Part shown: piece after piece, positions 35,794-52,458 of the stretch
Numbering within the stretch: the first letter of the stretch is position 1
Layout of the letters: each line of letters starts with the position of its first letter
From: Pseudonocardia sp. SCN 73-27
GTDB taxonomy: Bacteria; Actinomycetota; Actinomycetes; Mycobacteriales; Pseudonocardiaceae
NCBI GenBank assembly: GCA_001725415.1
Contig: MEGH01000020.1
Span: 1-64,000 of the forward strand
Reading direction: 5' to 3'
Length of the DNA stretch: 64,000 nt
Made by a program: the position numbers and the translations under genes
The notes under the pieces: model-generated
The model's database searches: none
Seen by the model: only the letters and a program-made list of their open reading frames with translations
Told to the model about the DNA's origin: nothing

Positions 35794-36933
35794 TCAGGCT
35801 TCGGCGGCCTCGCTCGGTGCGGTGGTCGCGGCGGGCGTGCGGGTCGTCGTGGACGTGCCGGTCGCCGGTTCGCCCTGTTCGAGCCGCTGCCGCTGGGGCA
35901 CCACCGTGTACTTCGGGTCGTCGGCCGACTGCATGCCGGCGTGGAAGACGCCCCAGCGGGTGGCCGCGGAGGCGGCCAGCATCGCCGCACCGCAGACCGC
36001 GCTCGCGACTCGGCTTCGGCGGCCGAGCACCGCCCCGACGACGCCCGCCACGGACAGCAGCGTGCCCGCCCGGACGTAGGCACCGCCGCGGCCCTGGGAG
36101 TACACCTCGCCGACCATGCCGAGCCGGCGCTCCATGCGCTCGAACGTCGCCAGCTCGAGTGCGGTCCCGGCGAGGGCCAGTGCGCGGGCCGGACCCGTCT
36201 CCGCGACCGGTGCGGTGAGCAGCCCCAGCCCGCCCGCGGCGGTCGCCCCGGACCCGACGAACACGAACGGCATCTCGCGGTAGCCGTCGTGCCATGCGGG
36301 AACGGCGGTGTCGCTGATCAGCGCAGCGGTGTAGGAGGCGACGGCCGGGCCGAGCGTCGCCGCCGCGACCGTCGCGGCCGCCCCGGCGCGGGGGGCCCGC
36401 CCGGTCACCGCCGACGCGGCGGCGGCCCCGGCGACCGGGATGTAGCCCGCGAGCAGCCAGGAGCCGACGCTCATCGGCGAGGTCACCTTGAACACCCGGA
36501 GCATGTTCAGGAACCGCTGCGGTCTGCCGAGGTCGTGCACCAGACCGACCAGCGACAGGAACCCGGCGGCGACGGCGCCGACCTTGCTGCTCCGCTCCAG
36601 CCGCCGCCGTCCCGTCCGCTGGGCACCGGCACCCAGCAGGGACGCCGCTCCCGCGAGGCCGCCGAGGAACAGGTAGCCCGGGATGTCGGGGGCCTCCCAC
36701 ACCGGCTTGTTGATCACCGGTTCGGCGTAGTACGAGGTGAAGGTGGCGTCGGGGACCTGCGGGGTCTCCCCGCCGCGGCGCCGCCTGCCCCTGCCGCCGC
36801 GCGGTCTGCCCGTGGTGACGCCGGTGACGGCCTCGCGGTCGGGGCGCACGCCCCGCAGGCCGTCCTTCGTGACGTCGGTACCGGGGGTGCCGGCGCCCTG
36901 GCGCTCGCGTTCGACGGCGTCGTCGGTGGGCAT
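35794..36933 (-). CDS. NrfD-type membrane subunit of formate dehydrogenase
   Basis: The 379-residue protein has a basic, hydrophilic N-terminus (about 1-75) and then eight or so hydrophobic helices. Recognisable NrfD/polysulfide reductase elements are TSYYAEPVINKPVWEAPDIP, YLFLGGLAGAASLLGAG and the quinone-site region LVHDLGRPQRFLNMLRVFKV followed by TSPMSVGSWLL. In this family the subunit transfers electrons from the iron-sulfur subunit to menaquinone. Its ATG overlaps the upstream stop by one base, and AGGAGG lies in the end of the upstream gene. The haem-b type FdnI subunit is absent, so this is an NrfD-coupled enzyme. Confidence 0.87.
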   Translation of the reverse strand: MPTDDAVERERQGAGTPGTDVTKDGLRGVRPDREAVTGVTTGRPRGGRGRRRRGGETPQVPDATFTSYYAEPVINKPVWEAPDIPGYLFLGGLAGAASLLGAGAQRTGRRRLERSSKVGAVAAGFLSLVGLVHDLGRPQRFLNMLRVFKVTSPMSVGSWLLAGYIPVAGAAAASAVTGRAPRAGAAATVAAATLGPAVASYTAALISDTAVPAWHDGYREMPFVFVGSGATAAGGLGLLTAPVAETGPARALALAGTALELATFERMERRLGMVGEVYSQGRGGAYVRAGTLLSVAGVVGAVLGRRSRVASAVCGAAMLAASAATRWGVFHAGMQSADDPKYTVVPQRQRLEQGEPATGTSTTTRTPAATTAPSEAAEA

Positions 36934-37913
36934 CAGATCCTCCTTCCGGCGACGAACGCCGCGACGGCCGCGCCGACGAGCGTGGCCGCGGCCGCCCCGA
37001 CCCGCCGCCACATCGCGGGCAGGTCCCGGGTCGTGACGACCGGGTCCGGGGGCAGCCCGTAGACCTCGGGCTCGTCGAGCAGCAGGAAGAACGCGCCGTC
37101 GCCGCCGACGCCGTCGTGCGGGTCCCGCCCGTAGAGGCGGGCGTCGGTCACCCCGCCGTCGTGCAGGCTCGCGAGGCGGGCGCCGGCACGTTCGCGCAGC
37201 TCGTCGAGCGGGCCGAACTGGATGGAGTCCGTGGGGCAGTTCTTGGCGCAGGCCGGCTCCTGCCCGACGGTCAGCCGGTCGTAGCACAGCGTGCACTTCC
37301 AGGCCCGGCCGTCGTCCTTGCGCTGGTCGATGACCCCGTACGGACAGGCGGGGATGCAGTAGCCGCAGCCGTTGCAGATGTCCTCCTGCACCACGACGGT
37401 CCCGAACTCGGTGCGGAACAGCGACCCGGTCGGGCAGACGTCGAGGCACGCGGCGTGGGTGCAGTGCTTGCACACGTCCGAGGCCATGAGCCAGCGCAGG
37501 TCGCCCGGGTCGCCGGGCGTGGTCGGAGTCGTCCCGGCCTCGTCGGGCGACGTGCCGGAGCCCTGCGGGGCGAGCGCGAGGACGTCGACGCCTTCGTGGA
37601 GGACACCCGGGTCCTGGACGGCGAGGGGTTTGCGCTGCTCGACGAACGCGACGTGGCGCCACGTGTCGGCGCCGAGCCCCTGGGTGTTGTCCATGGACAT
37701 GCCGGTGAAGACCAGCCCGTCCTCGGGAATGGCGTTCCACTCCTTGCACGCGACCTCGCAGGCCTTGCAGCCGATGCAGACCGACGTGTCGGTGAAGAAG
37801 CCCATCCGCGGCGGATGGTCGGTCCAGCCGCCCTGGGCGGCGGGATCGGTGTCGCCGAGCAGGGCCCCGGTCAGGTCGGGCCTGCGGCCGATGGTGACGT
37901 CGACGGGGGCCAT
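36933..37913 (-). CDS. fdhB: Formate dehydrogenase iron-sulfur (beta) subunit
   Basis: The 326-residue protein carries four ferredoxin cysteine clusters: CIGCKACEVAC near residue 46, CKHCTHAACLDVC near 148, CNGCGYCIPACPYG near 181, and CTLCYDRL with CAKNC near 210. A C-terminal hydrophobic helix (about 305-322) could anchor it to the membrane. It links the Mo/Se catalytic subunit to the NrfD quinone subunit. It starts one base after the catalytic subunit gene and overlaps the next gene, so all three are co-translated. A non-conserved 40-residue proline/threonine insertion lies between clusters one and two. Confidence 0.92.
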   Translation of the reverse strand: MAPVDVTIGRRPDLTGALLGDTDPAAQGGWTDHPPRMGFFTDTSVCIGCKACEVACKEWNAIPEDGLVFTGMSMDNTQGLGADTWRHVAFVEQRKPLAVQDPGVLHEGVDVLALAPQGSGTSPDEAGTTPTTPGDPGDLRWLMASDVCKHCTHAACLDVCPTGSLFRTEFGTVVVQEDICNGCGYCIPACPYGVIDQRKDDGRAWKCTLCYDRLTVGQEPACAKNCPTDSIQFGPLDELRERAGARLASLHDGGVTDARLYGRDPHDGVGGDGAFFLLLDEPEVYGLPPDPVVTTRDLPAMWRRVGAAAATLVGAAVAAFVAGRRI

Positions 37914-37914: not shown

Positions 37915-40900
37915 TCAGATCTCCGTCCCGGTGTGCTCGGTGATGCCTGCCCGGCGCTGGTACTCCTTCACCAGCTCCACCCGCGCCGGCCCGCGCGGAC
38001 GCCGGCCCGGCCGGATGTCGCACTGCCCGACCTTGACCTCCTGGATGTGGGAGTTGGGGTCGAGCGAGAGGTGCGCGAGGTCGTTGGCGGAGTCGCCGCG
38101 CGCGAGGCCTCCCTGCCCCCAGTGGTACGGCAGCCCCACGTGGTGCAGGACCCTGCCGTTGATCGTCATCGGCGTCATGCGCTCGGTGACCAGGACCCGG
38201 GCCTCGATGCAGTTGCGGGCCGTGACGATCGTCGCCCATCCGGCGTGCTCGAGCCCGCGCTCGCGCGCGAGCTCGGGGGAGACCTCGCAGAACATCTCCG
38301 GCGCGAGCTCGGCGAGATAGGGCTGGTAGCGGCTCATCCCCCCGGCCGTGTGGTGCTCGGCGATCCGGTAGGTGCTCATCATGTACGGGAACACCTCGGC
38401 CCCCGGCTCCGAGCCGCTGGGCTGGAACCGGTCGTCCGGATGGACCATCGACAGGATCTGGCGGACCGGGTTGCGCTGCTGGGAGTACAGCAGGTTGGGC
38501 ACCGGGGACTCCTGGGGCTCGTAGTGCGTCGGCAGCGGACCGTCGGTCAGCCCGGCCGGTACGAACAGCCACGACTTCCCGTCGGCCTGCATGACGAACG
38601 GGTCCACGCCCGCCAGCGCCTCGGCGCCGCTCGCGTCGGTGGGCGGCCGGTAGTGCGGTGACTTGGAGGCGGTGAAGTCGGGGATGTCGTGCCCCTGCCA
38701 GAGCGCCTTCTCCTCGTCCCACCAGACGAGTGCCTTGCGCGCGCTCCAGGGTTTGCCGTCCGGGTCGGCGGAGGCCCGGTTGTAGAGCACGCGGCGGTTC
38801 GCGGGCCATGCCCAACCCCACTGGTTCGCCACCCAGTTCTGCTCCGTCGCCGGCGTGCGTCGCGACGCCTGGTTGACCCCGTCCGAGTAGACGCCGCAGT
38901 AGATCCAGCAGCCGCACGCCGTGGAGCCGTCATCGTTGAGCTGCTCGTAGGAGCTCAACGGCCCACCCTCGGCATCCCAGCCGTTGATCTCGGCGAGGAC
39001 CGCCTCGGCCTCGGGCTCGACGTCGCCGGGGTGGGACTGCAGCGGCGTGGTCGGGTAGTCCCACGTGAGATCCAGGAGCGGGCGGTCCATCTCGTCGGTA
39101 CTGCCCGCGAGCTTCTCCCGGATCCTGCGGCCCAGGTGGAAGGCGAACCACAGGTCGCTGCGGGCGTCGCCGGCCGGTTCGACGGCCTGGTGGTGCCACT
39201 GCAACATCCGCTGGGTGTTGGTGAAGCTGCCGTCCTTCTCGGTGTGCGCGGCGGCCGGCAGGAAGAACACCTCGGTGCCGATGTCCTCGGTGCGCAGCTC
39301 GCCGGTCTCGATCTCGGGCCCGTCCTTCCACCAGGTGGCGGACTCGATGAGCGAGAAGTCGCGCACGACCAGCCACTCGAGATTGGCCATGCCCATCCGC
39401 TGCATCTTCGCGTTGGCCGACCCGACCGCCGGGTTCTCGCCCAGCACGAAGTAGCCCTTGCAGTTCCCGGCCAACTGGGCCATCACGGTCTCGTACGTGG
39501 AGTGGCTGCCGGTGAGCCGCGGCAGGTAGTCGAAGCAGAAGTCGTTCTCCGGTGTCGCGGCCGGACCCCACCAGGCCTTGAGCAGGCTCACCGTGTAGGC
39601 CCGCATCTCGGCCCAATAGCCCTTGCGCGGGGACTCGCCCTCGATGAACGAGTCGAGATCCATGTGCGCGTGCGCGTGCGGCATCGGGATGTAGCCCGGC
39701 AGCAGATTGAACAGCGTCGGGATGTCGGTGCTGCCCTGGATCGAGGCGTGCCCCCGCAGGGCCATGATCCCGCCGCCCGGACGACCGATGTTGCCCAGCA
39801 GCTGTTGGAGCACGGCGGCGGTGCGGATGTACTGCACCCCGACGGTGTGCTGCGTCCAGCCCACGGAGTAGACGAACGCGCTGGTCCGGTCCCGGCCGGA
39901 GTTGTCGGTCAGCAGCTCGCAGACCTGACGGAACGTGTCCTGGGGGACGCCGCAGATCTGCTCGACCATCTCCGGGGTGTAGCGGGCGTAGTGCCGCTTG
40001 AGGACCTGGTAGACGCAGCGCGGGTGCTGCAGCGTCGGGTCGACCTCGGGTTCCCCGGCGATCGCCGCGCCGCCCGAGCCGTGGGCCTCACCGCGCCCGG
40101 ACTGGCGCACGCTCTTGCTGCTGGCCCTGCCCTTCTTCGTGCCGGGATGGTCCTCGTACTCCTGGTCGCGCTGGCCCGAGGCGGCCTGGACCTCCATGCC
40201 CTCGTACTGCCAGGTGTGGAAGTCGTAGGTGCGCTCCTCCGTGTCCAGCCCGGAGAAGACGCCGTCGAGGTCCTCGGTGTCGCGGTACTCGTCGGTGAGG
40301 ATGGTGCCGGCGTTGGTGTACGCGACGATGTACTCGCGGAAGTCCTTCTCGTTGGCCAGGACGTAGTTGATGATCCCGCCGAGGAACGCGATGTCCGTGC
40401 CGGCACGCAGCGGGACGTGGAGGTCGGCCAGCGCGCTGGTCCGGGTGAACCGCGGGTCGACGTGGATCACCGTCGCGCCGCGGGCCTTGGCCTCCATCAC
40501 CCACTGGAACCCGACGGGATGGCACTCGGCCATGTTCGATCCCTCGAGCACGATGCAGTCGGAGTTCTGCAGGTCCTGCTGGAAGGTCGTGGCGCCGCCG
40601 CGACCGAACGAGGTCCCCAGACCGGGGACGGTGGCGGAGTGTCAAATACGGGCCTGGTTCTCGATCTGGATCGCGCCCAGTGCCGTGAACAGCTTCTTGA
40701 GCAGGTAGTTCTCCTCGTTGTCCAACGTCGCGCCGCCGAGAGAGGCCAGGCCCATGGTGCGGCGCACGCGCGCGTCGTCGGACTTCCACTGCCAACCCTC
40801 GCGGCGGGTGGCGACGACCCGGTCGGCGATCATGTCCATCGCCGTGTCGAGGTCGAGCTCCTCCCACTCCGTGCCGTGGGGGCGCCGGTAGCGGACCTTG

Positions 40901-41208
40901 TACTCGCGCGCGGAGCCCGTCACCAGCTGCAGCGTCGACGACCCGCGCGGGCAGAGCCGCCCACGGCTGACCGGGGAGTCGGGGTCGCCCTCGACCTGCA
41001 CGACCTTCTCGTCCTTGACGAACACGTTCTGCCCGCAGCCGACGGCGCAGAACGGGCAGATCGACTTGACGACCTTGTCGGCCGTGGCCGACCGGGGCGC
41101 GAGCGTGGCGCTGCGGCGACTCTTCACGGCTGCGGCCCGACCCAGCGGGTCGTTGCCGGTGAGCTGCCGGTAGACCGGCCATTCTTCGATCCAGGTCTTC
41201 ACACCCAT
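37915..41208 (-). CDS. fdhA: Selenocysteine-containing formate dehydrogenase catalytic (alpha) subunit
   Basis: The gene reads through an in-frame TGA at 40644-40642, giving 1097 residues with selenocysteine at 189 in the context NQARI-U-HSATVPGLGTSFGRGG, exactly where E. coli FdnG has it. The N-terminal 4Fe-4S ligands are C51, C54, C58 and C86 (CPFCAVGC...LCPRG). Molybdopterin-binding motifs follow (SNMAECHPVGFQWVMEAKA, IHVDPRFTRTSA, VHPDDRF). It oxidises formate to CO2. A bacterial SECIS hairpin follows the TGA. Unlike FdnG there is no convincing Tat signal peptide: SRRSAT at 30-35 is not followed by a hydrophobic stretch. GAGGAGG precedes the ATG. Confidence 0.95.
40613..40644 (-). promoter_or_regulatory. 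SECIS element for UGA recoding in fdhA
   Basis: In the mRNA the UGA is followed by 18 nt and then the apical loop GGUCU, held by the perfect stem GUCCCC/GGGGAC. The loop sequence and its 18-nt distance from UGA match the E. coli fdhF SECIS that binds SelB. This is strong direct evidence for selenocysteine insertion. Confidence 0.92.
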
Positions 41209-41239: not shown

Positions 41240-42037
41240 TCAGCGGTTCTCGGCGGCGAGGATCTGTTCCCCGAGCTCGCGGCGTCGCTCGTCGGGCATG
41301 GCGTCCTTCAGGAGGAGGAAGAGCCGCTCCTCGTGGGCCATGTGCTTGCGCAGCAACAGGATCAGCTTCTGCACCGTCTCGTCGAACTCGTCGGTGCCGG
41401 GGTCGAGACGGCCCAGCTCGGCGAGGGTGTCCTTGCCCTGCTGCTCCTGCTCGTCCGCCTCGTCGGCCCAGCGGTCACCGTCCGGGAGCGCGGCGCGCAC
41501 GGCGGGCCAGAAGAACTGCTCCTCCAGCGCCTCGTGCTGCGACAGCCGGACGGTGATCATGTCGACGACGGTCTTGCGCAGCTCCTGCTGGGACCGGTTG
41601 CCGCCCGAGGAGTGACCGGGCAGCGCCGCCAGCTGTTGTTGCAGGTACCTGACCTGGTTGTGGTCCCGGGTGAGGACGACGAGGACGTCGTGCTCCTCGC
41701 TGGGATCGTCGATCTCCGGGGGCTCGGGCGTCCGCTGTCGCGCGGCGTCCTGCATCTGCGCGTCGGCGCCGGCCCGGGCCTCGACCCAGTCGAGGACGGC
41801 CTGTTTCGTCGTCGGGTTCTCCGCGTGGATGCCGAGCAGGTGCTGCGCGGTGGGCAGTACGCCGGGCCGCTGCCGCTGCCGCTGCCGCTCCTGCTCGGTG
41901 CAGGTGTCGCTGCCGTCGGCGGGCATCCCGGTTCCGATGAGGTAGGCCTGCCCGGCGGGCACACCCAGGCGCGCCCCGATCGTCTCGTAGTCGAGCCCCT
42001 GCTCGACGAGAGCACGGACCTGTTCACGGGTGGGCAC
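41240..42037 (-). CDS. Hemerythrin-domain protein with N-terminal helical domain
   Basis: The 265-residue protein has an N-terminal DNA-binding-like segment (VRALVEQGLDYETIGARLGV, about 8-30), a variable linker rich in Q and R, and a C-terminal hemerythrin HHE domain (about 115-260). Di-iron ligand candidates are the histidine in EEHDVLVVLTRDHNQ, HEALEEQFFWP and HMAHEERLFLLL. Hemerythrins bind O2 or sense NO and oxygen. The first 14 bp overlap the preceding gene, placing it as last gene of the ctaCD operon and 31 bp from the formate dehydrogenase start, so it may protect or regulate these respiratory enzymes. Confidence 0.82.
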   Translation of the reverse strand: MPTREQVRALVEQGLDYETIGARLGVPAGQAYLIGTGMPADGSDTCTEQERQRQRQRPGVLPTAQHLLGIHAENPTTKQAVLDWVEARAGADAQMQDAARQRTPEPPEIDDPSEEHDVLVVLTRDHNQVRYLQQQLAALPGHSSGGNRSQQELRKTVVDMITVRLSQHEALEEQFFWPAVRAALPDGDRWADEADEQEQQGKDTLAELGRLDPGTDEFDETVQKLILLLRKHMAHEERLFLLLKDAMPDERRRELGEQILAAENR

Positions 42038-42518
42038 GACCGGTTCCTCCTCCTGTCACGGTCGCGGGCGCGACCTCCTGCGCGGCGACCGCGGCCGCCT
42101 CCTCCGCGCGGGCCCACCGGACGGTGAGCGCCAGCGCGGCGAGCCCCATCGGCAGCATCGCGACGATCATGGCGATGCCGCCGGGTCCGTCGCCGCGTGC
42201 GACGAGCCACACCCCCGGCAGGTCGAGGGCCGGCATCGTCGCGAAGAGCAGGACTGTGCGGCCGGGTGGTGACAGTGCCCGGCGGCCGAGGACCGGTCCC
42301 CAGAACAGGACACCGCCCACGAGCAGCACGACCGGTCCGATCCCGGCCATGGCGGGCACCAGGGTCGCCGCGGCGTGGAGCAGCACGAACCCGGGCGCGA
42401 CGACGACCGCGGGCAGGGCGGGCGGCTCGATGCCCAGGGCTCGCAGGGTCAGCAGCAGCAGGGGGGCGAGCACCGACACCAGCAGTCCGTCGGCCCCCAT
42501 GTGGACGACGTCGTTCAC
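42024..42518 (-). CDS. CtaG-like cytochrome oxidase assembly membrane protein
   Basis: The 164-residue product has four hydrophobic segments and resembles part of the CtaG (caa3 assembly) family: HMGADGLLVSVLAPLLLLTL at the start, FVLLHAAATLVPAMAG, and VLFWGPVLGRRALSPPGRTV, comparable to the conserved LLFWxPVLG stretch of CtaG. It is shorter than full-length CtaG, so it may be a truncated or divergent member. The GTG is preceded by GGAGG at five bases, overlaps the previous stop by 4 bp, and the operon with ctaC/ctaD supports a role in copper or oxidase assembly. Confidence 0.65.
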   Translation of the reverse strand: MNDVVHMGADGLLVSVLAPLLLLTLRALGIEPPALPAVVVAPGFVLLHAAATLVPAMAGIGPVVLLVGGVLFWGPVLGRRALSPPGRTVLLFATMPALDLPGVWLVARGDGPGGIAMIVAMLPMGLAALALTVRWARAEEAAAVAAQEVAPATVTGGGTGRAHP

Positions 42519-43132
42519 GTCCGCCTCCGGAACGCGCGGAGGAGCCCGCGCACCACGGCCGCTGTGGCGACGGCCGCCACGACGGGCCGGGCGGGCTCCT
42601 GCGGCGATGTCGGGTCCGCGGGTACGAGCTCGCGGACGGGATGGGTGCCCGGGACCGCGACGGCCGCGCCCGTGGCCGTGCCGTCGTGGACCTGCCGGTG
42701 CACCCCGGGGGCGGGGGGCATCCCGTCGAGTGCCGCGGGCTCCGGGCGGACGCCGGCCGCGACGCGCTCGCCGCGGACCAGCACCGCGGCGGTGGCCAGC
42801 GGGTAGAGCGCCACGAGCAGCCACATCCAGCCGTAGGCCAGCGACAGCCCCGCGACCGTCAGCCCGAGCGCGGTGAACACGGCGGCCGTGCTGCGCACCG
42901 GCATCCGCACGCTCGTGCCGACGCCGCGGCCCGAGCGCAGGGCGACCACCACGGCCAGCCCGAAACCCGACAGCAGCACCAGGTCGAACAGCCACAGCAG
43001 CATCGAGATCGGCTGCGCCCGGAAGCCGAGCATCAGCCCGGCGAGGACGCCGTTCCCGGCGGTCCACGCGCCGACGACGAGATGTCCCGACCGCAGCTCG
43101 CTGCGGCGCGGCCGGGTGAGCGCGGCCGTCAC
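42515..43132 (-). CDS. Hypothetical membrane protein in the ctaCD operon
   Basis: The 205-residue protein has four hydrophobic segments in the first 120 residues (HLVVGAWTAGNGVLAGLML, MLLWLFDLVLLSGFGLAVVV, AAVFTALGLTVAGLSLAYG, LLVALYPLATAAVLV) and a hydrophilic C-terminal region ending in a basic tail. I do not recognise the family. It occupies the position after ctaD with 4-bp overlaps at both ends, so it might be a small accessory subunit of the oxidase, similar in place to subunit IV/CtaF, but similarity is not visible. Confidence 0.7.
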   Translation of the reverse strand: MTAALTRPRRSELRSGHLVVGAWTAGNGVLAGLMLGFRAQPISMLLWLFDLVLLSGFGLAVVVALRSGRGVGTSVRMPVRSTAAVFTALGLTVAGLSLAYGWMWLLVALYPLATAAVLVRGERVAAGVRPEPAALDGMPPAPGVHRQVHDGTATGAAVAVPGTHPVRELVPADPTSPQEPARPVVAAVATAAVVRGLLRAFRRRT

Positions 43133-44766
43133 CGGGCAGCCTCCCGCAGGTCGAGCAGCGGTGCGTAGCTGCGGATCGGCGGCACCGGGTGGTCGGGGTC
43201 GAAGTTGTGCGGGGGCGGGGGCGACGAGGTGGCCCACTCGAGGGTGAAGCCGCCCCACGGGTCAGCGGGGGCGCGCCGCGGTCGCCGGATCGAGATCACG
43301 ACGTCGACCAGGAAGATCACGGTTCCGATCGCGAGCAGGCCGGAGCCGAGGGTGGCGATCAGGTTGGCGGTGCCGAAGCCGTCCTGGGGCAGGTACGTCG
43401 AGATGCGCCGGGGCATGCCCTCCAGCCCGAGGAAGAACATCGGGAAGAACGTCACGTTGGTGCCGACGAGCCAGAACCAGAAGTGCGCCTTCGCGAGCCG
43501 CTCCCGCAGCTGCAGACCCGTGGCCTTCGGGAACCAGTAGTAGAACCCGGCGAAGAAGCCGAACAGGCTGCCGGCGGCGAGTGTGTAGTGCCAGTGGGCG
43601 ACGATGAAGTAGGAGTCGGTGACCTGGTAGTCGACCGGCGGCGTCGCGATCATGATCCCGGTGAGGCCGCCGACGAGGAACTGCGGCACGAAGGCCAGCG
43701 CGAACAGCATCGGTGCGGGGAAGCGCAGCCTGCCGCCGACCAGGGTGGCGAGGAAGCCGAAGTACTCCATCCCGGCCGGGACGAGCAGCAGGATCGACGT
43801 GAGCGAGTAGTAGTCGTTCTCCGCCTGGCCGGTGCTGAACATGTGGTGGCCCCACACGCTCATCGACAGTGCCGCGAAGGCGAGCAGCGACACCACGGTG
43901 ATCTTGTAGCCGAAGTAGCGGCGGGCCCCGAACACGGCGAGCACCTCGGCGACCGCACCGACGAACGGGAAGAACATCACGTAGACGACCGGGTGTCCGA
44001 AGAACCAGAAGACGTGCTGGTAGCCGATGTTCCAGATGTTCTCGTCGAAGAGGTCGGGGTTCACCCGGCCGACGCCGAGGATTCCCATCGCCACCAGCAA
44101 CGACGGGAACGCCCCGATCGTCATCAGGTTGGTCGCGACGACCGACCACGTGAAGACCGGCATGCGCAGCAAGGTCATCCCCCTGGTGCGCTTGACCAGG
44201 GCCGTCCACAGCACGGTGGCCGCCATGAGCAGCATCCCGAGCCCGGCGAGGGCGACCCCGACGATCCAGAGGTCGACGCCCGGGCCCGGGGTGAAACGCG
44301 TACTCGCCAGGGGCGGGTAGGCGTACCAGCCGTGGTCGGCGGCGCCGGTCGAGGTCGCGAACCCGGAGAGCATCGTGACGGCGCCGCCGGCGTAGAGCCA
44401 GTAGCCGAGCATCGTGGTGCGCGGGGCGGCGACGTTCGGGGCGCCGATCTGCAGCGGTACCAGGTAGAGCCCCAGACCGATTGCGAACGGCGTCATGACC
44501 AGGTAGATCATCCCCGAGCCGTGGATGGTGAAGAACTGGTCGTAGCGCTCGGGGGTGAGCACGGTCATCTGCGGACGGGCCAGCTGGGCGCGCATCGTCA
44601 GCGCCAGCGCGCCGATCACCACGAGCAGGGTGACCGCCGTCCCGAGGGTGAGCAGACCGATCCGTTTGTGGTCGGTGCTGGTCACCCATGACAGGACCGT
44701 GGTGCGGGTCCGGCGCGGGACGGGCCGCGGCTCGTCGTGCGGGACGCGGGGTTCGGTGGCGGTCAT
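43129..44766 (-). CDS. ctaD: Divergent cytochrome c oxidase subunit I
   Basis: The 545-residue protein has 12 helices and all metal ligands: haem histidine H82 in FTIHGSGMIYL, CuB histidines H258, H307 and H308, the cross-linking tyrosine Y262 (GHPVVY), and AHWHYTLAAG near the end. It differs at proton-channel positions: N111 in GAPNVAAPR where A-type enzymes have Asp, V260 where HPEVY has Glu, and E334 in VPAGME where the K-channel lysine is expected. It is therefore probably an active oxygen reductase of an unusual type. ATGA overlap with ctaC; the main aa3 oxidase is likely encoded elsewhere. Confidence 0.92.
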   Translation of the reverse strand: MTATEPRVPHDEPRPVPRRTRTTVLSWVTSTDHKRIGLLTLGTAVTLLVVIGALALTMRAQLARPQMTVLTPERYDQFFTIHGSGMIYLVMTPFAIGLGLYLVPLQIGAPNVAAPRTTMLGYWLYAGGAVTMLSGFATSTGAADHGWYAYPPLASTRFTPGPGVDLWIVGVALAGLGMLLMAATVLWTALVKRTRGMTLLRMPVFTWSVVATNLMTIGAFPSLLVAMGILGVGRVNPDLFDENIWNIGYQHVFWFFGHPVVYVMFFPFVGAVAEVLAVFGARRYFGYKITVVSLLAFAALSMSVWGHHMFSTGQAENDYYSLTSILLLVPAGMEYFGFLATLVGGRLRFPAPMLFALAFVPQFLVGGLTGIMIATPPVDYQVTDSYFIVAHWHYTLAAGSLFGFFAGFYYWFPKATGLQLRERLAKAHFWFWLVGTNVTFFPMFFLGLEGMPRRISTYLPQDGFGTANLIATLGSGLLAIGTVIFLVDVVISIRRPRRAPADPWGGFTLEWATSSPPPPHNFDPDHPVPPIRSYAPLLDLREAAR

Positions 44767-45449
44767 GCGGTGGCCCCGCCCGGGAGCGCGCCGGTCTGCA
44801 GGAAGCTCTGGTACTGGTCGTCGGGGACGGCGCGGACGTAGAAGTCCATCGTCGTGTGGTGGGTACCGCAGTACTCCGAGCACCGGCCCAGCCACTGCCC
44901 GGCGTCGGGGAACGTCATGACCAGCGAGTTCACGTGGTCGGGGTAGGCGTCGCGCTTCACCGCGAGCTGCGGGATCCAGAACGCGTGCACGACGTCGCGG
45001 GAGGTGAGCGAGAACTCGACCGGGCGGCCCTGCGGGACGACGATCACCGGCCGGTCACCCGGCGTGGCGCACGAACCGGTGACGGACGTGCTCGACCCCG
45101 GGTAGCTCGCGCTCCAGCACCACTGGAAGGCGGTGACCGCGACCTGCACCGGTGCCGCGCCCGCGGCCACCGCCTGGGGCCCGGACCCGGCCTGGGTGTC
45201 GGTGTAGTCGAGCGCGTGGTTGTTCGACAGGCTCAGCCACACGAGGAACGCCGCGGCGCCGCCGAGGACGACGGCGAAGCCGATCTCGACCGCGTTGTGC
45301 TCGGCCGCGGCGAACGGCAGCTTGTCGCGGCGGCGCGCCCGGTTGAGGACGATCGCACCCACCAGCAGGGCCGTCACCAGGACGAACACCCCGCCCGCGA
45401 TCCAGAGCTGGATCCCGAACACGTGGTCGAACACAGCGCGGTAGTCCAC
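44763..45449 (-). CDS. ctaC: Cytochrome c oxidase subunit II
   Basis: The 228-residue protein has two N-terminal transmembrane helices (about 14-36 and 56-76) and a periplasmic cupredoxin domain. The binuclear CuA site is complete: HAFWIP supplies the first histidine and CSEYCGTHHTTM the two cysteines, histidine and methionine. It accepts electrons from cytochrome c (or the bc1 c subunit) for subunit I. No lipobox is present. It starts the operon ctaC-ctaD-orf-ctaG-like-hemerythrin and diverges from the bc1 genes across a large inverted repeat. Confidence 0.93.
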   Translation of the reverse strand: MDYRAVFDHVFGIQLWIAGGVFVLVTALLVGAIVLNRARRRDKLPFAAAEHNAVEIGFAVVLGGAAAFLVWLSLSNNHALDYTDTQAGSGPQAVAAGAAPVQVAVTAFQWCWSASYPGSSTSVTGSCATPGDRPVIVVPQGRPVEFSLTSRDVVHAFWIPQLAVKRDAYPDHVNSLVMTFPDAGQWLGRCSEYCGTHHTTMDFYVRAVPDDQYQSFLQTGALPGGATA

Positions 45450-45636: not shown

Positions 45637-47136
45637 GTGGGGCTGGTCGCGCGGGCGCTGACGCGCGGAGCCGCCGATGCCGTGGACCGGCGCTACTCGG
45701 TCGCGAGCGCCGCGCGACGGCAGGCGTCGCACGTGTTCCCGAAGCACCACTCGTTCTTCTGGGGCGAGATCGCCTTGTACTCGTTCGTGGTGCTGGTGCT
45801 CTCCGGCACCTACCTGGCGCTCTACTTCGTGCCGGACACCACCGAGGTCGTCTACACCGGACCGTACGCACCCTTGCAGGGGCTGTTCGTGTCGCGGGCC
45901 TACGACTCGGCGCTGAGCCTGTCGTTCGAGGTGCGGGCCGGCCTGTTCGTGCGGCAGCTGCATCACTGGGCCGCGCTGCTGTTCGTGGCGGCGATGATCC
46001 TGCACATGGCCCGGAACTTCTTCACCGGTGCCTTCCGGCGACCGCGGGAGCTGACCTGGCTGGGCGGGGTCGCCCTGCTCGCGATCGGGATCTTCGAGGG
46101 CTACCTCGGGTACTCGATGCTCGACGACCTGCTGTCCGGCCTGGGCGTCCGGATCTTCTCCGGGTTGCTGCTCTCGGTGCCGGTGGTCGGTACGTGGCTG
46201 CACTGGCTGGTGTTCGGTGGGGAGTTCTTCGGCGACATCTGGATCTCCCGGTTCTTCATCGCCCACGTCCTGGTGCTCCCCGGGCTCCTCGTGGCGCTGA
46301 TCGCGGTGCACGTCGGGCTCGTCTGGTACCAGAAGCACACGCAGTTCCCGGGTCCGGGCGCGCGCGAGGACACCGTCGTGGGGGAGCGGGCGCTACCGGG
46401 CTTCGCGTCCAGGACCGTCGCGAACGGGGTGTGCGTGCTGGCCGTCCTCGGGCTGCTCGCGGGGGTGTTCCAGATCAACCCCGTGTTCCTGTGGGGGCCG
46501 TACACCCCGACGCAGGTGTCGACGTACATCCAGCCCGACTTCTACGCGGGGTTCCTCATCGGGGGGCTGCGGCTGTGGCCGCGCTGGGAGTTCCATCTCG
46601 GCGACCACACCGTGGCGGCCCCGTTCTGGGTGGGGCTCGTCCTGCCGCTGCTCATGTTCGCGCTGCTCGCGCTGTACCCGTGGCTGGAACGGCTGCGCAC
46701 CGGCGACCACGCGCCCCACCAGGTGCTGCAACGCCCGCGCGACGACGCGACCCGCACCGGGATCGGCGCGATGGGACTCGTGTTCTGGGGCATCCTGTTC
46801 GCCTCCGGTGCGACCGACGTGCTCGCATCGACGTTCGACGTGCCGTTCGAGTACCTCGTGTGGGCGGGCCGGATCGGGCTGCTCGTCCTGCCGCCACTGG
46901 CGTTCGTCGTGGTCAGAGGTGTCTGTCGTGGACTGCAGCGCTCCGACCGCGACGCCCTCGAACACGGCGTCCACACCGGTGTCCTGCAGGAGGGCCCCGA
47001 CGGCGTGTACGTGGAGCTGCGCCGTCCCCCTGGCGGAGCCGACCGCGCCGGACGTCCCGTCCCGCTGCGCTACGGCGGTTCCCGGATCGACCGGCGGCCC
47101 GACACCGGGGCCGACCAGACCGAGGAGCAGCGATGA
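45637..47136 (+). CDS. qcrB: Cytochrome b subunit of bc1-like complex
   Basis: The 499-residue protein matches actinobacterial QcrB: VFPKHHSFFWGEIALYSFVV at the N-terminus, haem ligands in LHHWAALLFVAAMILHMAR and AHVLVLPGLLVALIAVHVGL, FEGYLGYSMLDDLLSGLGVR, and FQINPVFLWGPYTPTQVS with the Qo-site proline region. About nine helices are followed by a hydrophilic tail. It oxidises menaquinol. GAGGAGG precedes the GTG start. It is the first gene of this operon, unlike the usual actinobacterial order C-A-B. Confidence 0.93.
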   Translation: MGLVARALTRGAADAVDRRYSVASAARRQASHVFPKHHSFFWGEIALYSFVVLVLSGTYLALYFVPDTTEVVYTGPYAPLQGLFVSRAYDSALSLSFEVRAGLFVRQLHHWAALLFVAAMILHMARNFFTGAFRRPRELTWLGGVALLAIGIFEGYLGYSMLDDLLSGLGVRIFSGLLLSVPVVGTWLHWLVFGGEFFGDIWISRFFIAHVLVLPGLLVALIAVHVGLVWYQKHTQFPGPGAREDTVVGERALPGFASRTVANGVCVLAVLGLLAGVFQINPVFLWGPYTPTQVSTYIQPDFYAGFLIGGLRLWPRWEFHLGDHTVAAPFWVGLVLPLLMFALLALYPWLERLRTGDHAPHQVLQRPRDDATRTGIGAMGLVFWGILFASGATDVLASTFDVPFEYLVWAGRIGLLVLPPLAFVVVRGVCRGLQRSDRDALEHGVHTGVLQEGPDGVYVELRRPPGGADRAGRPVPLRYGGSRIDRRPDTGADQTEEQR

Positions 47137-47927
47137 TGCGTCGGCTGCGCAACGTCGCGCTGATCGTCGTGGCCCTGGCCGCCGTCGGCGGCGTGTACGC
47201 GCTGCTCGTGCCGTCACCGCAGACCGCCGTCGCGCAGACAGCGGACACGGCGCGGACCGCGCAGGGCCGGGCTCTGTACGAGCAGGCCTGCATCAGCTGC
47301 CACGGGGCGAACCTGCAGGGCGAACCCGGGCGGGGTCCCGGCCTCACCGGCGTGGGCGACGCGGCCGTCTACTTCCAGGTCTCGACCGGCCGGATGCCGC
47401 TGGCGGGCCCGCAGGACCGCGGCTACCGCAAGGCGCCGGCACCGGAGTTCGACCCGACCACCGAGCAGGGCAGCGCGAACCTGGCGGCGCTGGGTGCCTA
47501 CGTCGAGGCGAACGGCGGCGGGCCGACGACGCCGACGACGCCCGGCGACCAGCTCATCGGCTCCGACGTCGCGCACGGCGGAGAGCTGTACCGGCTGAAC
47601 TGCGCGTCGTGCCACAACTTCACCGGCCGCGGCGGCGTGCTCGCCGACGGGCGCTACCCACCGCGGCTCGACGGCGCGACCCCGACTCAGATGTACACCG
47701 CGATGCTCAGCGGCCCGATGGCCATGCCCGTGTTCAGCGACCAGCAGCTGACGCCCGAGGAGAAGAAGGACATCATCGCCTACGTCGTCTCCGTCCGGGG
47801 ACAGAACAACGCGCCCGGCGGGTTCGGCCTCGGCGAGCTCGGCCCCTCCACCGAGGGCGTCATCGCGTTCGTGGTGGGCCTTGCCACCCTCGTCGGCGTC
47901 GCCGCCTGGATCGGGGCCCGGACGTGA
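47133..47927 (+). CDS. qcrC: Dihaem cytochrome c subunit of bc1-like complex
   Basis: The 264-residue protein has an N-terminal signal anchor (NVALIVVALAAVGGVYALLV), two haem-binding sites CISCH and CASCH, distal methionine candidates in RMPLAGPQ and MAMPVFSD, and a C-terminal helix (about 240-260). Dihaem c subunits of this type replace a soluble cytochrome c in actinobacterial bcc-aa3 supercomplexes. The ATG overlaps the qcrB stop (ATGA), and the stop overlaps the Rieske gene. It would pass electrons to the CuA site of the divergently encoded CtaC. Confidence 0.92.
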   Translation: MMRRLRNVALIVVALAAVGGVYALLVPSPQTAVAQTADTARTAQGRALYEQACISCHGANLQGEPGRGPGLTGVGDAAVYFQVSTGRMPLAGPQDRGYRKAPAPEFDPTTEQGSANLAALGAYVEANGGGPTTPTTPGDQLIGSDVAHGGELYRLNCASCHNFTGRGGVLADGRYPPRLDGATPTQMYTAMLSGPMAMPVFSDQQLTPEEKKDIIAYVVSVRGQNNAPGGFGLGELGPSTEGVIAFVVGLATLVGVAAWIGART

Positions 47928-49045
47928 GCACCCCGCGCGAGCCCACCGGGCACGAGCTCGAACGGATGAGCCGCTCCGAGCTGGTCGAGCTCGGCGGCTC
48001 GCTCGACGGCGTCCAGGTCGTCTCCGACGAGCCGGCACATGGCTCCGACACCCCGGACCGGGAGCGGCGCAGCCGCCGCCTGGTCACGCTGCTGCTGGTG
48101 CTGTCGCTGCTGTGCGCCGCGGGTTTCGTGTGGGCGTACCTGTTCTGGCCCACCGGTTACGTGCCGCCGGGTGCGCCGGGCCACACCGCCTACCTGCTGT
48201 ACACGCCGCTGATCGGGCTCACGTTCTTCGGGGCGGTGGGGGCGCTGGGCGTGGCCCTCGTCGTCTACGTACGACGCTTCTACCCCGACGAGGTCGCCGT
48301 GCAGCACCTCGAGCGGGGCCCGTCGCCGGAGAAGGACCGGTTCACCGCGGCCGCGACCTTCGCCGAGGCCGGTGCGCACACGGGGTTCGGCCGCCGCACC
48401 ATGATCCGTCGGCTCGGCCTCACCGGGTTCGGCGTCATCGGCATCATGGGCGGTCTCGTCGCGGTCGGCGGACTGGTCCGCAACCCGTGGCGGCAGGGCA
48501 CCGACGCTGCACTGTGGACGACGGGGTGGAAGCCCACGGGCGACGAGCCGGTCTTCCTCCGCGTCGCCGCGGGCGACCCGCGGGAGATCGTCAAGGTCCG
48601 GCCCGAGGACCTGGAGCCGGCCTCGATCCTCACCGTCGTGCCGTTCCGGGAGAGCGAGCGCGACGACGTCGAGAAGAACCACGACGCCGAGATGGCCCCG
48701 GACAACCCGGTGGTGCTCATCCGGCTGCCGGCCGGGACGCACGTGACGAACCCGCCGGGCCGTGAGGACCTGCACCACGGTGACTACTACGCGTTCTCCA
48801 AGGTCTGCACCCATCTCGGCTGCCCTGCCGCGCTGTACGACACCCAGTTGCAGGTGATCCTGTGCCCCTGCCACCAGTCGGAGTTCCGGATCACAGAGGG
48901 CGCGCGGCCGGTCTTCGGGCCCGCGGCCCGCCCGCTGCCGCAGCTGCCGATCACCGTCGATGCCGACGGGTACTTCGTGGCGCGCAGCGACTTCCTCGAC
49001 CCGGTGGGCCCCAGCTTCTGGGAGATGCGCCGCGGGAGCCGGTGA
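47924..49045 (+). CDS. qcrA: Rieske iron-sulfur subunit of bc1-like complex
   Basis: The 373-residue protein has the extended actinobacterial form with three N-terminal hydrophobic helices (about 53-72, 87-110 and 163-182) and a C-terminal Rieske domain with CTHLGC and CPCHQS binding the 2Fe-2S cluster, followed by GPAARPLPQLPI. It moves electrons from quinol to the dihaem c subunit. The GTG overlaps the qcrC stop in a GTGA junction. Its stop is 3 bp from the stop of the convergent antiporter operon. Confidence 0.93.
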   Translation: MSTPREPTGHELERMSRSELVELGGSLDGVQVVSDEPAHGSDTPDRERRSRRLVTLLLVLSLLCAAGFVWAYLFWPTGYVPPGAPGHTAYLLYTPLIGLTFFGAVGALGVALVVYVRRFYPDEVAVQHLERGPSPEKDRFTAAATFAEAGAHTGFGRRTMIRRLGLTGFGVIGIMGGLVAVGGLVRNPWRQGTDAALWTTGWKPTGDEPVFLRVAAGDPREIVKVRPEDLEPASILTVVPFRESERDDVEKNHDAEMAPDNPVVLIRLPAGTHVTNPPGREDLHHGDYYAFSKVCTHLGCPAALYDTQLQVILCPCHQSEFRITEGARPVFGPAARPLPQLPITVDADGYFVARSDFLDPVGPSFWEMRRGSR

Positions 49046-49048: not shown

Positions 49049-50860
49049 TCAGCCGAGGGCGACGGGGAGCCCGACGAGGGCGCCGAGGAGTGCGACGCCG
49101 ACGACGAGCCAGGCCGCGTAGTCGCCGACGTGGCCGGAGTGCAGGGCGCGCAGCCCACGCGCGGTCGAGGCGGCGGCCCGCGGCGTCGGAACGCGACGGC
49201 CGCTGACGGAGACCGCGGCCAGCAGGGCGGCAAGGACCGCGCCGACGGTGCCGGTCAGGAGGGCGGCGAGGTCCCACCCGGGCAGGTGCGGCGCAGCGAC
49301 CGGTGGCGCGGAGCCGGCGAGGGTCGCGGCGGTGTAGCTGTCACCGTCGAGGAACCGGGCGGCCGCGCTCCCGATCCCGGCGACGAGCCCGGGCGACGAC
49401 CAGGGAACGACGCCGACCGCGAGTCCGCCCGCCGCCAGCACGACGATCGGTACCAGCATGGTGAGCGGCAGGGGCTCGAGCAGCCTGCCGACCTCGGGTT
49501 CCTCCTCGCCGGTCGTCTCCTCGGCACGCTTGCCCTGCGGGGCGGGGCCCCAGCCGCGGAACGTCCGCACCCCGAACCGCACGATCGCCCCGCCGGTCAC
49601 GGCGGCCACCGCCACGAACAGTGGCGTCGCCCACCCGGGCGAGGCCTCCTCGGCGAGCGCCTTGCCCCAGCCCGTCCCGAACGGTGGCAGCCCGGCCAGC
49701 GCGAGCCCGCACAGCGGCATCAGCCATGACAGCAGGACCGCGTGCCGACCGCGGCCGTGCAGCTCGTGCTCGTCGACGCTGCCGTAGTGGTTGAGCACCG
49801 CCCCGGCCATCAGGAACAACGCCCCCTTCAGCAGCGCGTGCCCGACGACGTACACCAGCACCCCGGCGGTCGCGGCGGCGTCGGCCGTCGCGAGGGCGAC
49901 CAGGAACAGGCCGCCGTGGGCGATGGTCGAGTACGCCAGCAACCGTTTGAGGTGCCGCTGCTGCCAGCACATCACCGCGCCGACCAGCGCCGTCAGCGCG
50001 CCGAGGACGAGCAGGGCGTCGCGCAGGTCGTCGGCGGGCAGGGCGTCGGCGAACACGACCGAGCGCACCCGGACCACCCCGTAGAGGCCGAGCTCGACCA
50101 TGATCCCGGAGAACAGCACACAGACCGGGGACGGGGCGACGGCGTGCGCGTCGTCGAGCCAGAAGTGGAAGGGCACGACAGCGGCCTTGACCAGGAACCC
50201 CGTCACCACCAGGACGAACGCGGCCACCACCAGCGCGTCCGGCGGCCTGCCCGCGAGCGCGTCGTGCAGCGGTGCCGTCCCGAGCGCCCCCGCCCGCGCG
50301 TAGAGCAGCCCGATGCCGAACAGCGTCACGTACGCGCCGAGGGAGTTGACGACGCCGAACGTCAGCCCGCCCTGTACGGCCTGTGCGTCCTCGGTGCGCA
50401 ACCCCGTCAGCGCGTACGCGGCCACCCCCATGAGCTCGAAGAACACGAACATGTCGAAGAGGTCGCCGGAGTAGGCGAACCCCGTCATGCCGGCCAGGAA
50501 CAGCAGCACGAGCGCGTGGTAGTGCGCCTCGGCGGAGTCGAAGTACCGCCAGCCGAACACGAGCGCCGCGACGGTCAGCACCGCTGCGAGCAGCGCGGCA
50601 CCGGCCGCGACCGGATCGGCGAACAACGCGATGCCGACGGTGACGCCGCCGACCGGGGACCAGCCGCCCACCCAGGTGACCGCGGGCCCGCCGGTGACCC
50701 CGAGCAGCACCACCACGTCGACGGCGACGACGAACGCGGCGACACCCGTGGCGACGGCGTCGACGACACGGTGCGGGAGCCACCTGCCCACGCCCAGGAC
50801 GACGCACGCGGTCAGCACCGGGACGGCGATCGCGAGGGGTGGCAGGTCCGGGACGGTCAT
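49049..50860 (-). CDS. MnhD/MrpD-type antiporter subunit (complex I ND4/ND5-like)
   Basis: The 603-residue polytopic protein belongs to the proton-conducting antiporter family: [19 protein letters not shown] contains the key glutamate of helix 5, [20 protein letters not shown] the lysine and histidine of the channel, [16 protein letters not shown] and [13 protein letters not shown] the second half-channel. It ends the seven-gene operon and would be the only ND5-like ion-translocating subunit in it. Its start overlaps the MnhC-like stop. The extended C-terminus with helices near 450-600 is longer than typical MrpD. Confidence 0.85.
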
Positions 50861-51195
50861 CCCTTCAGGCCCGTCAGGTCGTCGGGGTCGGTCGTGCCGT
50901 GGCGGCGGGCGATCTGCAGCGACAGCGCGAGCAGCAGCGCGGTGACCGTCGCGGACACGACGACGTCGGTCAACGTGAGGGCCTGCACGACGGGATCGAC
51001 GAGCGGGCCCGCGAACGACCCGGCCAGCGGCGGTCCGGCGCCGCGCTGGTAGCCGACCGCGACGAGCAGGACGTAGCTGCCGGACTGGGCGACCGACAGG
51101 CATACGACCGCGTGCACGAGGTCGCGGCTGCGGACGACGCCGAAGACACCGACCAGCAGCAGCCACCCGGCGACTCCGTATGCGAGGACCGTCAT
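50857..51195 (-). CDS. MnhC/NuoK-like antiporter subunit
   Basis: The 112-residue protein has three hydrophobic helices and the NuoK/MrpC pattern: [20 protein letters not shown] with a helix-2 polar region, then [20 protein letters not shown] and [12 protein letters not shown]. The subunit normally sits between the large antiporter subunits. ATGA overlaps link it to genes on both sides. Confidence 0.82.
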
Positions 51196-51920
51196 CCCGC
51201 GGCCTCGTCGCCGGCCGTGCCCTGGCGCAGGAACCCGGCCAGCAGCACGACCACACCCGACGCCACCTCGATCCCGACCGCGGCCGAGAGCAGCGGAACC
51301 GTGCCCGCGGACAGCACGCTGCCGGCGGTCCCGAACGGCAGGACGTTCGCGAGGAAGCCGGCGCCGGTCGCGGCCGCCGCGAGGCCCGTCGCCGCGAACG
51401 CGGCCGTGCCGACGGCCTCGCCCGCGACATAGACGGTCACCGGCCGGACGCGGTCCAGCGCGGCCCGGCCGCCGACGAGGTAGACCAGGTGCACGGCCGT
51501 GCCGAGGACGATCCCGCCCTGGAAGCCACCGCCGGGGGTGAGCGCGCCGTGCACGACCGTGGCCAGGCCGAGCAGCAGCGTCACCGGCAGGACGAGGTAG
51601 GCGACCGCCCGCACCGCCTCCATGGTCCGAGGCGGCCGCGGGGGCGGCGCGTCATCGCCACCGCGCAGCAGCGCTGCCGCGCCCACCACGGCGGTGAGCA
51701 GCAGGGTCTCCTCACCGAACGTGTCGATCGCGCGCTGGTCGTAGTTCACCGCCGACACCACGTTCGGGGTGCGGTGTGCGGCCGCGGCGTCCAGGACGGC
51801 CGCGCGCAACGGATGGACGACCCCGCCGAACTCCGGCATCCGCAGCACCGCCGCGAGGAACAGCACGGCCACCCCGGCCGCCCCCACGGCGAACAGCCAC
51901 AGCCGCAGCCGTCTGCTCAT
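51192..51920 (-). CDS. Fused MbhE-like and MnhB-like antiporter subunit
   Basis: The 242-residue protein joins two elements. The N-terminal part (about 1-90) has [18 protein letters not shown], the counterpart of the C-terminal end of MrpA (MbhE). The C-terminal part (about 100-240) is MnhB-like, with [19 protein letters not shown] and four helices. In MBH-type modules these are separate subunits MbhE and MbhF. No large antiporter domain precedes it, so it is not a degraded MrpA but a compact version. Coupled by 4-bp overlaps at both ends. Confidence 0.78.
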
Positions 51921-52168
51921 CGGCGGCGCTTCCGCGCGGCGCGGGCGTTCGCCCGGACGGTCAGCATCACCATCAGCGGGACGACGACGGTGCCGACGGC
52001 GAGCTGTGCCAGCCCGACGTCGGGCGCCTGGAGCACGGCGAACAGCACCGTCAGGAGCAGCCCGTACCCGCTCAGCGTCACGGCTTGCGCGGCCGGCCCA
52101 CCGGTGAGGACGACGGCGGTCCCGCCCGCCGCGACGACGACCAGCGCCGCGGCGACCAGGACGGTCAC
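51917..52168 (-). CDS. DUF4040 (MbhD-like) antiporter subunit
   Basis: The 83-residue protein has three hydrophobic helices and the conserved APDVGLAQLAVGTVVVPLMV, matching the DUF4040/MbhD segment that is normally part of the MrpA C-terminus. It occurs here as a free-standing subunit. GTG start and both ends are in 4-bp overlaps. Confidence 0.78.
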   Translation of the reverse strand: MTVLVAAALVVVAAGGTAVVLTGGPAAQAVTLSGYGLLLTVLFAVLQAPDVGLAQLAVGTVVVPLMVMLTVRANARAARKRRR

Positions 52169-52458
52169 CGTGGGTCCTCGGTCTCGAGGAGCCTGCCGGT
52201 CGCCGCGCCGAGCACGGGTCCCGTTCCGGCGAGGACGACGACCGCGAGCGCGATCTGCAGGGCCGCCGACACCGATCCGCTCCCGAGCGCCACCGCGGCC
52301 CCGATCAGCGGGGAGGCCACCGACGTCAGCGCGGTGACCGCGTGCAGCCGGGTCCGCAGGTCGCGGGTGCGCAGCGCCGTCACCGACGCCCCCGCGACCA
52401 CGAGCACCCCGAGGACCAGGAGCACGACCGCGGCGACCGGCGCGGGCCGGCCGCTCAC
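52165..52458 (-). CDS. mnhG: MnhG/MrpG-like antiporter subunit
   Basis: The 97-residue protein has three helices and the MnhG pattern: VLLVLGVLVVAGASVTALRT, then DLRTRLHAVTALTSVASPLI, where the RLHA-T segment is conserved in the family. It forms part of the membrane module with its neighbours. The GTG start overlaps the MnhF stop. Confidence 0.82.
   Translation of the reverse strand: MSGRPAPVAAVVLLVLGVLVVAGASVTALRTRDLRTRLHAVTALTSVASPLIGAAVALGSGSVSAALQIALAVVVLAGTGPVLGAATGRLLETEDPR

Follow-up and report, generated by a model that had tools for sequence, protein, structure and literature searches.

A branch of A1-type cytochrome oxidases has lost most residues of both standard proton channels and carries an invariant lysine-to-glutamate exchange

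Studies of how haem-copper oxidases link O2 chemistry to proton pumping have relied largely on variants mutated in the laboratory at the D and K channels. The published residues are D124, N199, N113, N131, Y35, S134, S193 and E278 for the D channel, and K354, T351, S291 and Y280 for the K channel (Paracoccus numbering; Table 2 of PMC3084760). In Mycobacterium smegmatis CtaD, D115, E266, Y268, T337 and K340 are named as D- or K-channel residues in the available section of PMC11189923, and the K-route entry Glu of subunit II is given as Glu82 in yeast in the excerpted text of PMC8361435. Here we describe a second cytochrome oxidase subunit I gene, ctaD2, in a 64,000-nucleotide stretch of Pseudonocardia sp. 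SCN 73-27 (contig MEGH01000020.1 of assembly GCA_001725415.1, positions 1 to 64,000; hereafter the window). Judged from its sequences, the enzyme is a real, conserved variant of the A1 oxidases, found on one branch of the tree, in which both standard proton routes have been dismantled and a Lys-to-Glu exchange has been fixed.

The ctaD2 open reading frame (ORF) lies on the minus strand (43129..44766), running from an ATG at 44766 to a stop at 43129, and encodes 545 residues that score 418.7 bits against the COX1 Pfam model. The plus strand over the same positions yields a different, unrelated-looking reading. All of H82, N111, H258, V260, Y262, H307, H308 and E334 are present in the translation, as are H391 and H393, and the complete haem/CuB site claimed in the preliminary description of this locus (H82, H258, H307, H308 and Y262) is thus borne out. 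Alignment to M. smegmatis CtaD, locally ungapped at these positions, also placed the three substitutions where they had been proposed. N111 (codon 44434..44436) aligns with D115, the D-channel entry Asp; V260 (43987..43989) with E266, the D-channel Glu of HPEVY; and E334 (43765..43767) with K340, the K-channel Lys. The codon of the active-site Tyr, Y262, is at 43981..43983; all four codons are read on the minus strand. Subunit II is encoded by ctaC2 (44763..45449, minus strand; 228 residues, COX2 Pfam), and its CuA site was found complete, as had been stated, with H155, C190, E192, C194, H198 and M201. An AlphaFold2 model of CtaD had a mean predicted local distance difference test score of 88.9. 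In a Foldseek search with this model, the aa3 oxidases of Corynebacterium glutamicum and mycobacteria took the first eight places, with template modelling (TM) scores of 0.92-0.94 by query length (best 7q21_D, TM 0.94). The source genome (6.95 Mb, 99 contigs) has one ctaD match in the window, where the genome search gave no further ctaD match. A canonical ctaD with D, E and K lies on another contig (C12, locus L002), and canonical pieces occur at contig ends (L004/L005), in agreement with the description of ctaD2 as a second oxidase gene.

Short peptides of the window CtaD were used to scan about 85,000 genomes. This gave 352 related stretches, the best 80 of which were kept, so the clade described below may be larger. 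Among these best 80 were 57 loci that read HPVVY and have Glu in place of the K-channel Lys (the VE clade), 19 canonical loci, and 4 acidobacterial loci with D-to-N and K-to-Q exchanges that keep HPEVY. With the window, the VE set comprises 58 rows. The canonical set comprises 21: the 19 loci, M. smegmatis and L002; partial canonical ctaD pieces (L003-L008) were excluded from the alignments.

Across the 58 VE members, 11 of the 12 published channel residues are lost or mostly lost, while the active-site Tyr is kept in all. On the D route, D124, N199, N113, Y35 and E278 are retained in no member, N131 in one, S134 in two and S193 in nine; at the S193 position, a further seven VE rows have Thr, as do 7 of the 21 canonical rows. 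On the K route, K354 and T351 are retained in none, S291 in one and Y280 in all 58. The D-entry position has drifted over eight residue types (G23 N13 A13 T2 S2 R2 E2 V1), as expected of an abandoned route. Numbers were transferred from Paracoccus to M. smegmatis by motif, a correspondence that we in part assume. For D115, E266, Y268, T337 and K340, the transfer agrees with PMC11189923.

The losses are concentrated in the channels. At least 95% conservation in the 21 canonical rows was found for 69 polar positions. The clade has lost 15 of them, namely 9 of the 10 scorable channel positions and 6 of the remaining 59 (Fisher, P = 8e-7). Two of the channel positions, V260 and E334, define the VE group; the fairer figure without them is 7 of 8 against 6 of 59 (P = 1.4e-5). 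S134 and S193 were too variable among the canonical rows to be scored. The channel list was partly drawn up after losses had been seen (Y35, N199 and the S291 column); the table of PMC3084760, consulted later, lists the same residues plus S193. The six losses outside the channels, in M. smegmatis numbers, are D237, H243, R287, K288 (mostly to Arg), W344 and H450. The window had already been noted to combine an intact metal site with changed D and K channels, and the loss of nine of the ten scorable channel residues goes beyond the positions named at that time.

A search for substitutes at the usual channel positions gave none on the D route and one candidate on the K route, E334. V260, E334 and A331 are invariant in the 58 VE rows. 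All 21 canonical rows have Lys at the E334 position, for which they were chosen. Among charged residues at least 93% conserved in the clade, E334 is the sole acidic one not common to the canonical rows. In CtaC, E55 aligns by motif with what we take to be the K-route entry Glu. This position is Glu in the window and in 57 of 57 relatives, and in 14 of 15 canonical rows read (the other has a gap), but in none of the four acidobacterial K-to-Q rows. That E334 and E55 never vary, and that the entry Glu is absent from the rows with Gln for the K-channel Lys, speaks for a remodelled K route still supplying chemical protons from the cytoplasm. An alternative K-route entry at Glu539 of M. smegmatis CtaD was considered and proved uninformative, because no more than 7 of the 21 canonical rows have Glu there. 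Elsewhere, two loci of actinobacterial genomes (L102 and L108) encode a CtaD that keeps D and E and has Leu in place of the K-channel Lys.

In the same 58 rows, the metal sites are conserved. The six His ligands (H82, H258, H307, H308, H391 and H393) and Y262 occur in every row, and the CuA ligands in nearly all (H155 58, C190 57, E192 55, C194 57, H198 58, M201 57); the odd row, L033, probably has a CtaC that was mis-cut on extraction, and E192 is V or Q in two rows. The aromatic motif of CtaC is QWCW in most of the clade; its Cys replaces a Tyr found in most canonical rows. Ratios of nonsynonymous to synonymous substitution rates (dN/dS, Nei-Gojobori) for the window gene were approximately 0.14-0.17 against three relatives at 88-89% identity and 0.31 against two at 72-76%; between relatives, they were approximately 0.12 (L009-L012) and 0.18 (L109-L014). 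The pair L116-L117 was dropped for a meaningless value, probably reflecting a wrong strand. These ratios indicate that the VE ctaD is under purifying selection. They also rule out a pseudogene, as do the stop-free open frames of the VE matches in the 24 carrier genomes searched. In other genomes, 57 loci carry both the V and the E, which rules out a sequencing or frame error.

Descent was examined with a tree of 104 rows from which the ten channel columns had been removed; it held 54 VE rows (8 loci left out, 4 from further genomes added). All 54 fall on one branch, with a Shimodaira-Hasegawa-like approximate likelihood ratio test (SH-aLRT) support of 100. This branch lies inside a 79-row actinobacterial A1 group (SH-aLRT 96) that includes the M. 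smegmatis enzyme, which points to A1 descent independently of the channel columns. The tree was made by a quick method, with no bootstrap and one archaeal row as root; it has some long outgroup branches and no B-type rows, and it does not fix the sister of the VE branch.

Family features agree with this placement. The COX1 fold, the six His ligands and the helix VI Tyr of the A family (Tyr-I, Y262 in 58/58) are all present; the A1 motif XGHPEVY is not, with Val for Glu in 58/58. The HPVVY motif had been thought closer to B-type oxidases and the remainder A-like. The second part of this view stands and the first is not supported: the window CtaD reaches 552.9 bits with the actinobacterial aa3 model and 542.1 with the CtaD model, compared with 76.4 for SoxB, and 471.5 bits with the mycobacterial aa3 chain (6adq_F), compared with 38.1 for 1ehk, named as ba3-type. 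On these scores, a B-type origin is ruled out. NCBIfam cut-offs of 880 (cyt_aa3_Actin) and 670.75 (CtaD_CoxA) separated the groups, with five of five VE proteins tested below and three of three canonical proteins above. With respect to the A2 motif YSHPXVY, Y256 is present in 40 of 58 rows and residue 257 is Gly (54) or Ala (4); the Ser of the YS pair is thus absent from 58/58, which rules out A2 membership.

VE loci were found in Pseudonocardia, Halopolyspora, Actinomadura, Actinomycetospora, Prauserella, Amycolatopsis, Streptomyces, Acidiferrimicrobium, Conexibacter, Solirubrobacterales and others, the nearest named relative being that of Pseudonocardia autotrophica (L009, 89%); S. spinoverrucosus (L031) is another member. 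The spread is patchy. Matches at E<=1e-165 occurred in 13 of 200 sampled genomes of the family, including the source genome; of the other 12, 4 were read as VE, and the contigs of the remaining 8 equal named VE loci in length. At E<=1e-150, 20 of 396 sampled genomes of the phylum matched; the best loci of the 19 non-source genomes all read HPEVY, so that VE was found in 1 of 396. No match of at least 60% identity was present among 72,556 plasmid records. Each of 24 carrier genomes had one VE-like match (at least 53% identity) and at least one further COX1 match of lower identity, partial only in G602; the latter were counted by identity alone. Two VE loci per genome were seen in Streptomyces sp. 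NTH33 and S. spinosus, outside these 24. Because every carrier examined has another COX1 match, the VE enzyme looks like an extra oxidase throughout its carriers. No description of the VE clade was found in a literature search that mostly lay outside subscription journals, and HPVVY as the start of a searchable word gave no match in the literature searched. PDB and literature searches likewise gave no close homologue with measured pumping.

The genes ctaC2 and ctaD2 form one unit with those of a small membrane protein and a CtaG-like protein, and qcrB, qcrC and qcrA are divergent from it. The small membrane protein (42515..43132, minus strand), recognised as an ORF in the place of CtaF, overlaps the ctaD stop by four bases. 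In all 19 clade loci read (of 57), an ORF with 2-5 hydrophobic stretches was present at the same -4 offset, and sequence similarity of at least 20 bits was found in 26 of 57. Its identification as CtaF was not adopted, as similarity to a solved subunit was not detectable by sequence. The CtaG-like assembly factor (42024..42518, minus strand) is a weak assignment (Caa3_CtaG 20.2 bits, below the 27.7 cut-off). A single phmmer query detected CtaE in 0 of 57 clade loci; the only COX3 match in the genome is on contig C46, beside canonical qcrC/qcrA.

The divergent genes are qcrB2 (45637..47136, plus strand; bc1_QcrB_actin 603.3 bits, cut-off 500), encoding cytochrome b of a partner bcc complex with a short C-terminal tail; qcrC2 (47133..47927, plus strand; Pfam), with two CxxCH motifs and probably a dihaem cytochrome c; and qcrA2 (47924..49045, plus strand; QcrA_N 194 bits, Rieske 32.3 bits), encoding a Rieske protein. 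The window thus contains the adjacent qcrB, dihaem qcrC and qcrA expected of a bcc-aa3 supercomplex. With queries derived from the window, qcrB-like genes were found in 49 of 57 clade loci, qcrC-like in 16, qcrA-like in 17 and CtaG-like in 47. The same queries on 20 canonical loci gave qcrB in 4 and qcrC, qcrA, fdhA and CtaG-like genes in none; such queries favour clade over canonical loci, and several loci are short contigs. These counts show a full dedicated bcc set in the window and some relatives, as far as gene content tells, and not in the clade as a whole. The window QcrB is about 50 C-terminal residues shorter than the canonical QcrB of the same genome. QcrB tails vary among the clade rows that were read, 24 of 49, and four Streptomyces QcrB proteins beside a canonical ctaD are also short. 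A QcrB 'lid' over the D entry, described in the excerpted PMC8361435, was therefore not used as a factor: the tails vary and the lid segment was not identified. The window QcrB also reads QPDFY, with Ile where the canonical QcrB has Glu (QPDWYVLFTEG). The four Streptomyces loci with a short-tailed QcrB (L063, L065, L067 and L077) carry a second ctaD with canonical channels, a pair that may be of the type of S. coelicolor SCO7234/QcrB3.

Beyond the oxidase unit lie a hemerythrin-domain protein gene (41240..42037, minus strand; PF01814) and formate dehydrogenase genes on the same strand: fdhA (37915..41208; NF041513 1568.7 bits after the TGA, cut-off 1400), fdhB for the 4Fe-4S subunit (36933..37913; Pfam) and an NrfD-like membrane subunit (35794..36933; Pfam, start read). 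Codon 189 of fdhA is an in-frame TGA (40642-40644), probably read as selenocysteine; contig C45 of the source genome carries a tRNA-Sec, scoring 68.4 bits. Pieces of fdhA occur in 29 and 30 of 57 clade loci, about half, and the TGA precedes HSATVPGLG in 27 of 30, the other three being unreadable at the locus end. Convergent with qcrA are subunits of an Mrp-type cation/H+ antiporter, MnhD, MnhB, MnhG and, weakly, MnhF (49049-53204, minus strand). In the Solirubrobacterales locus L057, mnhD and mnhB also lie approximately 2 kb from ctaC/ctaD.

The preliminary description had proposed a non-pumping or differently coupled oxidase, and the intact site beside altered D and K channels makes a differently coupled enzyme the likeliest reading. 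In the form that we favour, with about even confidence, the VE enzyme would be an auxiliary, A1-derived, low-coupling oxidase without the D route, its K route having been remade with Glu334 at the centre; in this genome its partner would be a cytochrome bcc complex of its own. Formate dehydrogenase and other donors would supply menaquinol for oxidation by QcrB/QcrA, as the gene set suggests, and electrons would pass from dihaem QcrC through CuA and haem a to haem a3/CuB, where O2 would be reduced to water at the intact, Tyr-containing centre. The D route would have been discarded and the standard pumping path with it, since neither D-channel uptake nor the branching-point Glu is left. CtaC E55 and CtaD E334, in place of Lys, would carry chemical protons from the cytoplasm to Y262. 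O2 reduction would still be electrogenic by chemistry, at about one charge per electron, with either no pumping or far less than one H+ pumped per electron, and the enzyme could serve as a high-flux, low-back-pressure side branch. We infer supercomplex formation, E55-E334-Y262 conduction, the loss of pumping and the physiological role. A bolder formulation, held with slightly less than even confidence, is that VE enzymes are a monophyletic A-family subtype that gave up the D route and turned its Lys route into one of Glu alone, from CtaC E55 to CtaD E334. This would be the third A-type design of proton path found in nature, used in a deliberately low-coupled, bcc-linked branch. Our confidence rests mainly on the residue and tree results.

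Several points weigh against the low-coupling reading. Besides the loss of Ser291 and Thr351, apolar A273, L294, F297 and A331 have been gained around the K route, which could be dry and closed with E334 purely structural; folding may be what preserves E55. The CtaD structure model contains no cofactors, waters or partner subunit. Streptomyces VE loci have, of the three qcr genes, qcrB only, so a complete bcc set is not general. An unrecognised pump path is conceivable; in 40 of 58 rows, a Tyr stands at the position of the Tyr in the A2 YS pair. Small D-entry changes lower or abolish pumping, often without slower turnover (PMC8361435, in the part available), which fits but was found in other enzymes.

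The most serious rival, though an unlikely one, is that both cytoplasmic routes are closed and chemical protons come from the positive (P) side, as in the NO reductase cNOR, with only the bcc complex conserving energy. This would accommodate the loss or near-loss of the eight published D residues and of K354, T351 and S291, and the apolar residues around the K route; cNOR, a homologue, has no cytoplasmic proton route and is non-electrogenic according to the excerpt of PMC3084760. It leaves E334 and CtaC E55, each Glu in 58/58, hard to explain without proton entry from inside, the more so as E334 is the only acidic residue conserved in the clade (at least 93%) and absent from the canonical rows. 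Pumping could instead be retained through a rearranged path that uses Y101, Y319 or, in the members that have it, Tyr256, or that is gated by E334 alone, in a single K-type route resembling those of the B and C families. These families have a K-channel homologue only, presumed to serve substrate and pumped protons alike (PMC8509429, sections available), and Y101 is found in 58/58, Y319 in 57/58 and Y256 in 40/58. Yet Y101 is also Tyr in 6 of 21 canonical rows, the branching point equivalent to Glu266 is Val in all VE rows, and few conserved polar residues are left along either route; we consider such a pump rather improbable.

Still less probable is that O2 reduction is not the main activity and that the protein has degenerated, senses O2/NO or reduces nitric oxide (NO). 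NO reductases have arisen from haem-copper relatives, and other COX1 genes occur in the same genomes. Against this, the CuB and CuA ligands are kept, dN/dS is well below 1, neighbouring genes recur, and the cross-linking Tyr, absent from NO reductases according to the excerpt of PMC3084760, is present in 58/58. That the enzyme is an ordinary, fully coupled aa3 oxidase whose channel residues are simply dispensable is very improbable: the overall fold and A1 placement are those of such an enzyme, but the losses are concentrated in the channels, where changes lower, uncouple or block proton transfer in the A1 enzymes covered by the available text of PMC8361435.

Evolution has removed nearly the whole channel set in one clade while the catalytic centre remained under purifying selection. 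In the VE enzymes, nature has knocked out both canonical routes. Their hosts include cultured genera such as Streptomyces and Pseudonocardia, and they offer a test bed for the minimal proton supply, and for the separability of pumping from catalysis, in an A-type frame. An enzyme annotated as 'cytochrome c oxidase' need not give the usual ATP yield. To judge from the residues lost, a host breathing O2 through the VE oxidase probably saves less energy than usual.

Among described systems, the A2 oxidases, of which we take Thermus caa3 (2yev) to be an example, likewise have no Glu in the HPEVY position, and the Tyr of their YS pair occurs in 40 of 58 VE rows. VE enzymes differ from them in having no Ser, in the loss of the D entry and the K-channel Lys, and in having Phe at the Tyr position in 18 of 58 rows, including the window. 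A-family variants from Acidobacteriota (L073, L082, L084 and L088) and from Rhizobium and Sphingobium (L128 and L129) have the D entry changed to N or T and K to Q, and so replace both residues as VE does; they keep the Glu of HPEVY, form a separate branch (SH-aLRT 100) and, in four of four acidobacterial rows, have lost the CtaC entry Glu. B- and C-type oxidases are similarly without a D channel, with a possible single K-type route (PMC8509429, in part), whereas the VE sequence is firmly of the A family, and B/C K routes use Thr, Ser and Tyr rather than Glu (PMC3084760, in part). Loss in the K channel has been noticed before, in archaeal A-family oxidases with K-channel variants; these are other lineages, and the VE clade is not described in the available portion of that report (PMC8239418). 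The closest systems are the actinobacterial bcc-aa3 III2IV2 supercomplexes of the A1 type (M. smegmatis 6adq/6hwh and C. glutamicum 7q21). VE CtaD is 41-43% identical to theirs and differs in the missing D route and K-route Lys, Thr and Ser, in a window CtaC of 228 residues against 341, in having no CtaE found nearby and in the short QcrB tail. It nevertheless shares with them the fold, the haem/CuB and CuA ligands and the active-site Tyr, the window bcc genes share the QcrC with two CxxCH motifs, and these complexes contain the nearest solved chains by both sequence and fold.

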